NCBI GenBank assembly: GCA_020446675.1
Contig: JAGREE010000005.1
Coordinates: 154,637 to 218,636, forward strand
Reading direction: 5' to 3'
Length of the DNA stretch: 64,000 nt
Source of the DNA: Alphaproteobacteria bacterium
GTDB taxonomy: Bacteria > Pseudomonadota > Alphaproteobacteria > Sphingomonadales > Emcibacteraceae
Below the pieces are notes generated by a model that saw only the letters and a list, made by a program, of their open reading frames with translations, was not told where the DNA came from and ran no database searches. Each line of letters begins with the position of its first letter. Position 1 is the stretch's first letter. Positions 45,741-48,809 of this stretch are shown here, in pieces. The translations under genes were made by a program, and so were the position numbers.

Positions 45741-46091
45741 TTGATAGTGCTAAAAGATATAAAGACAAAACTTGAACTTGACCCAAAGTCATGCCAGGAC
45801 ATGAATGAACTGCGGGAACAAATTGATCAATTGGACAGAGAAATTGTCAACCTCCTTGCGCTACGCAAAACATATATGGACCGTGCCGCAGAACTTAAAA
45901 AGCACAGAAATCTTGTCAGGGATGATAAACGCGTCGTTGATGTTATAAAAAAAGTTTCAGAACATGCGACAAAAAATGGAGCCGACCCGAAGCTGGTGGC
46001 TGATCTTTATCGAACCATGATTGAATGGTCTATAAATTACGAATTTGACCAGTTTGATAAAATCAATAGCGAAATGGGTGAGAGTGCCTAG
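45741..46091 (+). CDS. Chorismate mutase, AroQ type
   Basis: A small AroQ-class chorismate mutase (chorismate to prephenate). The core is MNELREQIDQLDREIVNLLALR, followed by a Lys-rich helix (AELKKHRNLVRDDKRV) and the final helix ending TMIEWSINYEF. Conserved Arg and Lys residues in the first two helices fit the active site. Start is uncertain: TTG 45741, GTG 45747 or ATG 45801; the ATG would trim 20 residues that the usual family does not need. No other aromatic genes are adjacent. Its stop overlaps the stop of the gene on the other strand by four bases. Confidence 0.82.
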   Translation: MIVLKDIKTKLELDPKSCQDMNELREQIDQLDREIVNLLALRKTYMDRAAELKKHRNLVRDDKRVVDVIKKVSEHATKNGADPKLVADLYRTMIEWSINYEFDQFDKINSEMGESA

Positions 46092-46300
46092 TTACGGCAA
46101 AATTCGGATTGAATGCGACCAATTCTGACTTTTTCAAAAAGAACATAAAAATAATTTACAAAAGTGAATGAGGGAATTTTAATTCCGCTCAATTCCATAT
46201 GTTCCTTTAGTCCATGAAAAATATCACGAAGTCCGCCTATGACTAGAATGGCAAGCAGGGGAATAAAACAATAAGAAAGCAGCTGTAGCAGAATATCCAT
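46088..46300 (-). CDS. Small membrane protein under a putative LexA-controlled promoter
   Basis: A 70-residue protein with one strong N-terminal hydrophobic segment (residues 3-24, LLQLLSYCFIPLLAILVIG) and an amphipathic remainder with a second aromatic-rich stretch (residues 45-56). The ribosome binding site AAGGA lies seven bases before the ATG. Upstream, TTGACT and TAGAAC form a 17-base-spaced promoter, and GAAC-N7-GAAC, the alphaproteobacterial LexA box, overlaps its -10. Small SOS-induced membrane peptides such as Caulobacter SidA block division; DidA of the same species is about this size. By analogy this may be a damage-induced division inhibitor or toxin, but no homologue is identified. 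Confidence 0.7.
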   Translation of the reverse strand: MDILLQLLSYCFIPLLAILVIGGLRDIFHGLKEHMELSGIKIPSFTFVNYFYVLFEKVRIGRIQSEFCRN

Positions 46301-46474: not shown

Positions 46475-47047
46475 ATGGTTATTTATCAAATTTCTAAAAG
46501 CCGCGTACTGGGCAGTTTATATTCATTAATCGCCGCATTTTTTCTATTTAGTGCGGCACAGGCGCAGAATTCGCCACTGGCTGAAGAGGGTACGCTGGAA
46601 CCATTTGGTAATCACACGGTATTGCACCAGTTCGGCAATGTTATTTTTGCTGATCAGCCTGATAAAGATACTGTTGAAATGTATAAAGATAAAGATGTTA
46701 AAATGGTTATCAGCATTCGCGGTGAGAATGAGAATGCCGGGTATGATGAACGTAAGGCCGTTGAAAAAGCCGGGATGGCTTTTGTACAGATTCCATACAT
46801 GAATGGACGCGCCATAGATTCTGATAATGTTGATCAGCTTATTTCTCTACTGGATATGTCAGAAGCAAATGGAACCAAGGTTGTATTGCACTGTACCCAT
46901 TCCCAGCGTGCAGGGTCATTGCTTGGTGTCGCTCTTTATAAAAAGGGCTACTCACGCGAAGAAGCAAACAGACTGGCTAAGGAAGCTGGTATGACCAGTG
47001 AAATGATTACAAAAATACATAATGAGTATCTTGATAATCTAAAATAA
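46475..47047 (+). CDS. Exported Cys-X4-Arg phosphatase-like protein 1
   Basis: A 190-residue exported protein with a signal peptide (cut near AQAQ, residue 31) and one phosphatase-fold domain of the DUF442/beta-lactamase-hydrolase-like group. The putative active loop is LHC-THSQ-RAG with Cys140 and Arg145, i.e. four residues between Cys and Arg instead of the five of classical tyrosine phosphatases. A conserved PFGN and FGNVIFADQPD start is shared with its two neighbours. AGGAA lies about nine bases before the ATG. It is first of three tandem genes and diverges from the SOS-controlled small membrane protein. Substrate is unknown. Confidence 0.8.
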   Translation: MVIYQISKSRVLGSLYSLIAAFFLFSAAQAQNSPLAEEGTLEPFGNHTVLHQFGNVIFADQPDKDTVEMYKDKDVKMVISIRGENENAGYDERKAVEKAGMAFVQIPYMNGRAIDSDNVDQLISLLDMSEANGTKVVLHCTHSQRAGSLLGVALYKKGYSREEANRLAKEAGMTSEMITKIHNEYLDNLK

Positions 47048-47081
47048 ATTTCAGATATTGACACTCCATTAGGAAAAAAAC

Positions 47082-47672
47082 ATGACAAAATTAATTTCAC
47101 AGTTTGCAAGTCGGATTTTTTATTCCTTGCTTGTATGCGGTTTTTTATATTCATCTGCCCAGGCGCAATCCATTGATCTGACAACTGAGAATGCCCAGGC
47201 CCCGTTCGGCAATCTTGATAAGACACCACAGCTTGGTAATGTTGTCTATTCCCGACAGCCTGATGCGGCAACGATTCCCATGCTTAAGGATCAGGGATTT
47301 AAAATGGTTCTCAGTGTGCGCTTTGATGATGAACCTGTGGGGTTTGATGCGCAGAAACTGATTGAAAAAAACGGTATCGCGTTCCAGCAGATATCATTTT
47401 ATAAGGGAAGCATTAATGATCAGCCACGTGCTATTGACCCTCAGGCGATTGAAGAAATAAGCAAACTTCTTGATGCAACATCCGCTAACGGATCAAAAGT
47501 CCTGCTTCATTGTGCTTCGGGGCAAAGAGCGGCAGGTGCCTTGGCGGCAGTACTTTACAAGGATCATGGCTATTCAAAAGAAATGTCCATTGAATATGCA
47601 AAAAAAGCCGGAATGACCAGTCAGAATGTGCTTGAGGCACTTGAAAATTATATGTCTGATTTAAAACGTTAA
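47082..47672 (+). CDS. Exported Cys-X4-Arg phosphatase-like protein 2
   Basis: A 196-residue paralogue of its neighbours. Signal peptide ends near residue 28 (SSAQA). After PFGNLDKTPQLGNVVYSRQPD the fold follows the same order, with the active loop LHC-ASGQ-RAAG giving Cys144 and Arg149. The family general acid would be an Asp in the FDDEP or similar segment near residue 82, but I cannot assign it. AGGAA precedes the ATG. The spacer to copy 1 is 34 bases and to copy 3 is 24 bases. Confidence 0.8.
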   Translation: MTKLISQFASRIFYSLLVCGFLYSSAQAQSIDLTTENAQAPFGNLDKTPQLGNVVYSRQPDAATIPMLKDQGFKMVLSVRFDDEPVGFDAQKLIEKNGIAFQQISFYKGSINDQPRAIDPQAIEEISKLLDATSANGSKVLLHCASGQRAAGALAAVLYKDHGYSKEMSIEYAKKAGMTSQNVLEALENYMSDLKR

Positions 47673-47696
47673 TTTGAAAAATTAAAGGAAAAGCCC

Positions 47697-48752
47697 ATGA
47701 GAAGATTAATATCATTTGCCGGCCAATCATTAGGTGTTTTTCTTTTATTTTTTACACTGGCAAGTGCCCAGACCGCTTCATTAACGGCAGAGCAGCGGAC
47801 AGAGAAAAAAACGCAGCTTCCCTTTGGCAATCTCAAAAACACACCATATTTTGGAAATGTTGTTTATGCTGCGCAGCCCGACGCTGATACGGTGAAAATG
47901 CTTAAAAGCGAGGGATTTGATCTGGTCATCAATATCCGTGAACTAAATGAAGATCTTGGATTTGATGAAAAAGGTCTGATAGAGGGGCAGGGGATTACCT
48001 ATATGCAGATCCCATATCTTACCGCCCCCACTTTTGAGGCGGAATTCTCAGATGAAGCATTAAGCAAGATTAAGTCAGTTATAGATGAGGCGACCAACAA
48101 AGGTCAGAAAATACTGCTTCATTGCAGTCACGGACAGCGCGCCGGATCAAGTCTGGGCATGATCCTATACCGGGATTATGGATATTCGAAAGAAGAGGCA
48201 CTGGCCGCTGCCACAGCCGCAGGAATGAACAGTGAATGGGCAGTGCCCCGCTTTCATCGTTATATTGATCAGTCAGTTCAGGTGATCAAGCCTTTTGGTG
48301 GAATTCATAACATAGTCAAATATAAAAATTTCTATATCACCAGCCAGCCGCCGGCAGAAGCATTTGCCATGATGAAAGAACGTGGTATTACGACAGTTAT
48401 CACCAATCGGGCCGCAATTGAAAATAATGGTTTTGAAGAAGAAAAATATGCCGAAGAGGCAGGGTTAAAATTTTACAGAGCCCGAATTTATAATGACCAA
48501 TATGGTGACATAAAAGACGGCAAATTAAATGTGGCTGAACTTGAAAAAGCCCTTGGCATTATTGCATCAACGACTGATGGTGATGTACTGGTACATTGTG
48601 GTTCCGGTGACAGGGCATCTATGGTTTTGGCCGCCCATTTATATTCGGTTGATAAGGAAAAACCCGAAGAAGCTCTAAGCAAAGCGCGTATTGCCGGACT
48701 AAAACATCCCGGAATTACTGAGCAGCTTGAAAAATATATGGATTTGAAATAA
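47697..48752 (+). CDS. Exported double-domain Cys-X4-Arg phosphatase-like protein
   Basis: A 351-residue exported paralogue that contains two copies of the domain. After the signal peptide (cut near ASAQ), domain 1 carries PFGNLKNTPYFGNVVY and the loop LHC-SHGQ-RAG (Cys143, Arg148); domain 2 (about 195-351) is more divergent, with the loop VHC-GSGD-RAS (Cys301, Arg306). Both keep Cys and Arg, so both may be active. It closes the operon; a stem-loop follows at 48774. Confidence 0.8.
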   Translation: MRRLISFAGQSLGVFLLFFTLASAQTASLTAEQRTEKKTQLPFGNLKNTPYFGNVVYAAQPDADTVKMLKSEGFDLVINIRELNEDLGFDEKGLIEGQGITYMQIPYLTAPTFEAEFSDEALSKIKSVIDEATNKGQKILLHCSHGQRAGSSLGMILYRDYGYSKEEALAAATAAGMNSEWAVPRFHRYIDQSVQVIKPFGGIHNIVKYKNFYITSQPPAEAFAMMKERGITTVITNRAAIENNGFEEEKYAEEAGLKFYRARIYNDQYGDIKDGKLNVAELEKALGIIASTTDGDVLVHCGSGDRASMVLAAHLYSVDKEKPEEALSKARIAGLKHPGITEQLEKYMDLK

Positions 48753-48773: not shown

Positions 48774-48809
48774 AAAAAATGCCGCTCTGAAATTTCCAGA
48801 ACGGCATTT
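48774..48809 (-). terminator. Terminator of the diguanylate cyclase gene
   Basis: AAATGCCG-C-TCTG pairs with CAGA-A-CGGCATTT (one mismatch). The A run to the left gives a T run on the minus strand 20 bases after the GGDEF gene stop. It may also help end the phosphatase operon on the plus strand. Confidence 0.7.

Follow-up and report, generated by a model that had tools for sequence, protein, structure and literature searches.

Sequence profiles, predicted folds and phylogeny show that the four domains encoded by three adjacent genes of an alphaproteobacterium form a divergent branch of exported proteins neighbouring DUF442/BLH_phosphatase/TIGR01244. The superfamily is a known one, if poorly understood. 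Taken one by one, the features of these proteins are known already (the fold, the shortened loop, their export and either of the two chemistries that come into question); new is the genus-wide fourfold exported expansion of a DUF442-like PTP fold with fixed, different signatures. That the domains of the cluster are periplasmic sulfurtransferases is the favoured reading, to which we give slightly less than an even chance; it is likelier than a phosphatase function. Public records label CX4R proteins of the DUF442 kind either 'protein tyrosine phosphatase family' or 'sulfur transferase'. With its four exported paralogues, whose loops are fixed but differ, the genus offers a compact test system for phosphate versus sulfur chemistry in the PTP fold, and the same set is also a test system for the role of exported DUF442-like members.

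Gene cluster

The window, that is, the whole 64,000-nucleotide stretch of DNA that was analysed, sits within the 3.16-Mb draft genome of a marine-type alphaproteobacterium. Three ORFs lie on its plus strand, exactly where an earlier reading made from the letters of the DNA (the sequence-only reading) had located them, and are spaced by 34 bases (genes 1 and 2) and 24 bases (genes 2 and 3):

46475..47047, + strand: gene 1, exported single-domain CX4R protein, 190 aa (ORF, Pfam, AF2)
46475..46567, + strand: signal-peptide region of gene 1 (MVIYQISKSRVLGSLYSLIAAFFLFSAAQAQ; sequence read by eye)
46889..46909, + strand: P-loop of gene 1, HCTHSQR (ORF translation, alignment; THSQ in 11/12 orthologues)
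47082..47672, + strand: gene 2, exported single-domain CX4R protein, 196 aa (ORF; DSPc 22.3 bits, below cut-off)
47508..47528, + strand: P-loop of gene 2, HCASGQR (ORF translation, orthologue alignment)
47697..48752, + strand: gene 3, exported two-domain CX4R protein, 351 aa (ORF, Pfam DSPc, AF2)
47796..48287, + strand: gene 3 domain 1 (HMM match boundaries)
48120..48140, + strand: P-loop of gene 3 domain 1, HCSHGQR (ORF translation, orthologue alignment)
48270..48752, + strand: gene 3 domain 2 (HMM match boundaries)
48594..48614, + strand: P-loop of gene 3 domain 2, HCGSGDR (ORF translation, orthologue alignment)
48777..48809, - strand: intrinsic-terminator-like hairpin with a 15-bp stem, between gene 3 and a convergent GGDEF gene (hairpin scan)

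Export had been claimed for all three proteins, and each indeed begins with a hydrophobic N-terminus that looks by eye like a signal peptide, the segments ending in AQAQ, AQAQ and ASAQ in genes 1, 2 and 3, respectively. Several gene 3 orthologues may be lipoproteins, because a lipobox-like Cys closes the signal peptide in L063, L064, L066, L067 and L070; the window copy has none. The hairpin scan returned 3 hairpins against 2.6 expected by chance, and only that at 48777..48809 has a long stem. Promoter-like sites were as numerous in the real sequence as in shuffles, and neither RNA elements nor tRNAs were found in the window. A small ORF of ~70 codons with a hydrophobic N-terminus occupies the gap upstream of gene 1 (about 46090-46300, - strand). 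Control of the neighbouring GGDEF protein in the manner of TpbA-TpbB was considered and set aside: this 358-aa protein is encoded convergently, beyond the hairpin, has no membrane segment by eye, and yielded no further domain above cut-off in Pfam.

Domain family and predicted fold

The proteins carry four homologous domains, as had been proposed, which align over about 150 residues; the other three share 46, 41 and 30% identity with the first (gene 1). Common to all four are P, F and G near the start, QP, R, E, HC, R and other residues. The short loop was also read correctly from the sequence: every domain has HC-X4-R, one residue fewer than classical PTPs, and the HC-X5-R signature of classical PTP/dual-specificity phosphatases is absent from all four loops. 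The third residue after the Cys is Gly in gene 2 and both gene 3 domains and Ser in gene 1 and its orthologues. Membership of the three proteins in the DSP/PTP clan is supported by Pfam E-values of 1e-4 to 1e-13. Judged by this homology, the clan E-values and the high-confidence models of a PTP fold described below, the similarity of the domains is not a product of chance.

Pfam and NCBIfam agree on the clan but not on the family. Gene 1 barely exceeds the cut-off of Tc-R-P (28.0 bits against 27) and stays below those of PTP-NADK and BLH_phosphatase, and gene 3 scores 50.6 bits against the DSPc cut-off of 33.5 and also passes Tc-R-P, PTP-SAK and, marginally and in sequence only, Rhodanese (PF00581; 22.7 against 22.2). 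With PF04273 (DUF442/BLH_phosphatase; gathering cut-off 26.1), gene 1 fails at 15.6 bits and genes 2 and 3 are not listed; intermediate relatives pass (L110 33.0, L146 31.5, L148 28.9). All three proteins match TIGR01244 below its NCBIfam cut-off of 85.85 (28.5, 26.3 and 43.8 bits). The TIGR01244/PF04273 family, which includes the Blh N-domain and DUF442-SQR, shares the CX4R loop, the QP...R-x3-E layout and the PTP fold with the window proteins. These, however, are exported, unfused and far below the family cut-offs, and their loops read HC[TASGQE][HS][SG][QD]R instead of CR[ST]G[TM]R, with T, A, S or G rather than a basic residue after the Cys. The phylogeny, which the sequence-only reading had named as a check, places the domains in a separate clade distinct from canonical TIGR01244/PF04273 DUF442. 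The kinship with DUF442/Blh that it had suspected is thus upheld by profile, fold and tree.

Structure prediction, the other check it had named, gave a confident dual-specificity-phosphatase (PTP) fold for the gene 1 domain and both gene 3 domains (AlphaFold; pLDDT 96.7 and pTM 0.91 for the mature domain of gene 1, pLDDT 94.6 and pTM 0.90 for both gene 3 domains together). A rhodanese fold was rejected, as the best 50 fold matches of gene 1 are all PTP/DSP and none is a rhodanese. In this respect the domains differ from PspE and YgaP, sulfurtransferases that are exported or membrane-bound and have a Cys loop but a rhodanese fold (PspE: PMC2593051). The best folds in the PDB for gene 1 are 3GXG/3GXH, archaeal PTPs, TpbA, PRL and NMA1982, and the family profile ranks 3GXG first (E 6e-16), followed by NMA1982 (2F46), HP1203 and TpbA. 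The putative phosphatase DUF442 of Shewanella putrefaciens (3GXG/3GXH), the best PDB match by both routes, has the PTP fold and a CX4R loop (HCLANYR); unlike the window proteins, to which it is 18-20% identical, it is a single domain without the QP, R-x3-E and P-loop Gly motifs. NMA1982 of Neisseria meningitidis resembles them in loop length and fold (TM 0.69/0.74) but lacks a signal peptide (PMC10716126) and has a TIGR01244-type CRTGTR loop. TpbA of Pseudomonas aeruginosa is an exported single-domain DUSP (PMC4409338) of similar fold (TM 0.75); it differs in its CX5R loop, HCKHGNNR, with a general acid, and forms a long branch in the tree. For the two-domain model of gene 3, good matches are 3GXH, TpbA and other single domains. 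Cdc14 comes out on top by E-value, yet with an rmsd > 13 over both domains, so the arrangement of the gene 3 domains is not that of Cdc14.

Conservation and specialisation in the genus

Cluster genes occur in 12 of the 14 genomes of the genus, the window's own included; the near relatives with names are Emcibacteraceae/Kordiimonadaceae metagenome genomes. In most gene-bearing genomes with enough sequence, the genes follow the order single, single, double domain and have a TPR/SPOR protein gene and one of chorismate-mutase-like type upstream; a GGDEF gene and a DEAD-box helicase gene often lie downstream. The sister genus has one single-domain gene instead of the cluster. Conservation of Cys and Arg, on which the sequence-only reading had staked its proposal, is found throughout: no complete domain from 11-12 related genomes lacks the His, the Cys or the Arg, and QP and R-x3-E are nearly always present. 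Because the pattern used to scan wider relatives contained HC....R, conservation of Cys and Arg is partly circular there; the genus orthologues are independent evidence. Between orthologues, pS is 0.75-0.85 (saturated) and pN 0.14-0.28, and since synonymous sites are saturated while pN stays this low, the cluster is, by this comparison, under purifying selection. Together with the recurrence of the same cluster and flanks in most of the genus, these values refute the view that the cluster is decaying or that the similarity arose by chance without function, to which we assign a negligible probability; in its favour, gene 3 is degraded in the incomplete genome G031. As variants of the layout, L071:6450-7532 and L072:7316-8407 each encode a two-domain fusion of genes 1 and 2; domain 2 of gene 3 is missing in L071, and gene 3 is degraded in L072.

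The tree resolves four clades (support 99-100), one per position, and every clade has characteristic signatures. Gene 1 orthologues have PYM[KNE]GR before the catalytic helix and the P-loop HCTHSQR (one TRSE); gene 2 orthologues combine a KG[SN]xxDxxR substrate loop with HC[AQGE]SGQR; in gene 3, domain 1 has PYxxxP....FS and HCSHGQR, and domain 2 RIYNDxY and HCGSGDR. Because every position has a clade and a P-loop/substrate-loop signature of its own, the copies are, as far as sequences tell, old and specialised. As each has kept a different active-site signature, the four domains probably do four related jobs. Gene 3 had been taken for an internal duplication, which the tree does not support: its domain 1 shares a clade with genes 1 and 2 (100/99), close to which the sister genus's single-domain protein is placed, and its domain 2, much more divergent, sits on a long separate branch. 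Constraining the gene 3 domains to be sisters costs 17.3 log units (p-AU 0.09), so a recent internal duplication is disfavoured, short of rejection, on phylogenetic grounds.

Tandem PTP-fold proteins exist in which only one domain has turnover. The cluster might likewise be a mixed set, with one or two domains acting as enzymes and the rest as anion-binding or regulatory partners, but we regard this as improbable. The tandem layout, similar to Cdc14 and receptor PTPs in layout only (rmsd > 13), would fit such a set, as would the missing P-loop glycine of THSQ in gene 1, the loss of gene 3 domain 2 in G025 and the degraded gene 3 of G031. Pseudo-enzymes, however, usually lose catalytic residues such as Cys and Arg, and in all four groups no complete domain has lost either.

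Sulfur or phosphate chemistry

The claim that exported, multiplied phosphatase-like proteins are rarely studied was imprecise with regard to relatives, as Blh, SQR-fused DUF442, NMA1982 and exported TpbA have been assayed and 3GXG/3GXH has been solved. In Blh, the DUF442 domain acts as a sulfurtransferase with thiosulfate as donor (PMC5823870). DUF442 fused to SQR, with the loop CRTGTR, has a kcat of 4.89 per second with thiosulfate and cyanide, and its sulfurtransferase activity is mostly lost in the R99I variant (PMC8533005). NMA1982 has the same loop and is a weak phosphatase with a kcat of 4.4e-5 per second, whose hydrolysis needs Cys95 and Arg100 and is assisted by Asp71 (PMC10716126). 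The turnover of these two published CX4R activities is thus ~100,000-fold apart. Because CRTGTR is on record with both, the P-loop alone cannot decide between phosphate and sulfur, and it was rejected as a test. Going by the published rates, in a comparison that spans different proteins and substrates, canonical CX4R domains seem better developed for sulfur transfer than for phosphatase activity.

If the window domains are sulfurtransferases, an anionic sulfane-sulfur donor (thiosulfate, polysulfide or a low-molecular-weight persulfide) would be held by amides of the loop together with the invariant Arg. The loop Cys would accept the sulfane sulfur, forming a cysteine persulfide, and hand it on to a thiol or other acceptor. 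Exported enzymes of such function exist, as exemplified by PspE (PMC2593051). The four domains go back to duplications that predate the divergence of the sampled genus, and because different loop signatures were retained, these probably differ in donor or acceptor. It is conceivable, although rather unlikely, that the cluster serves as a periplasmic relay dedicated to sulfane sulfur, in which each of the four PTP-fold domains has a different donor or acceptor, and thus the exported counterpart of the cytoplasmic DUF442-SQR-SDO pathway of the same genome. The canonical cytoplasmic locus of that genome comprises SDO, a DUF442-SQR fusion (L198), SulP and cytochrome bd, and its presence counts in favour of sulfur transfer.

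Gene neighbourhoods of relatives favour sulfur, so far as genomic context is a guide. The relative L138, with the loop HCASGNR, follows a BigR-like ArsR gene, and an exported HCASGNR relative in Endozoicomonas (L135) follows a YgaP-like rhodanese gene with a BigR-like regulator adjacent. In 5 of the 7 sister-genus genomes with flanks, the exported single-domain gene and cysD-cysN are divergently oriented; these are close kin and therefore count as about one event. Other observations speak against sulfur transfer. No signal peptide is obvious in L138 or its closest kin, which belong to a sub-clade other than that of the window proteins. A sulfide-oxidation context or fusion is present for L138 and L198 but absent at the window cluster, which no sulfur gene adjoins, and most relatives inspected likewise had none nearby (Stenotrophomonas, where the gene lies beside dnaG, Planctomycetota and others). 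The distance of all domains from the TIGR01244 cut-off and the missing basic residue after the Cys also weigh against this reading, as does an invariant Asp found in two of the domains.

In PTPs the general-acid Asp resides on a WPD-like loop. At the position of this loop, whose alignment to TpbA and NMA1982 is ambiguous, an Asp is invariant in 12/12 orthologues of gene 2 and 8/8 of gene 3 domain 2. Alternatively, the proteins could be true periplasmic CX4R phosphatases acting on a phosphoprotein, phospholipid, inositol phosphate or other phosphomonoester, a serious alternative, which we hold to be less probable than sulfur transfer. The Cys would attack phosphorus, the Arg bind phosphate and the upstream-loop Asp serve as acid/base, candidates being the D of KG[SN]xxDxxR in gene 2 and that of RIYNDxY in gene 3 domain 2. 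Besides this residue, the PTP fold with 3GXG/3GXH, TpbA and NMA1982 as nearest solved relatives, the invariant His-Cys pair that opens the P-loop, the DSPc match of gene 3 and the precedent of NMA1982, a CX4R protein with Cys-, Arg- and Asp-dependent hydrolysis, would all agree with a phosphatase. However, gene 1 and gene 3 domain 1 have no invariant acid in the corresponding loop, and the only CX4R phosphatase kinetics found are those of NMA1982, which is extremely slow. Moreover, the inspected relatives showed no recurrent neighbour among kinase, phosphoprotein or phosphate genes, whereas sulfur genes recur near some.

Several further loci were noted. L138:718-6447 is a bigR-type sulfide-oxidation locus with a Blh-type SDO, two BigR-like ArsR, TauE and SQR-like genes; the DUF442-like part is encoded separately there, next to RND efflux-like genes. 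In L076, and also in L084, L085, L086, L088 and L089, all of the sister genus, the single exported CX4R gene points away from cysD-cysN/C and converges on formate dehydrogenase-like genes. L102 is a contig with the label Bacillus subtilis SK7B5 whose genes resemble those of Stenotrophomonas, probably through contamination. Finally, a DUF1684-like gene lies beside or near exported CX4R genes at L110:6611-7624 (KSB1) and L146:2354-3301 (a gammaproteobacterial-type genome).
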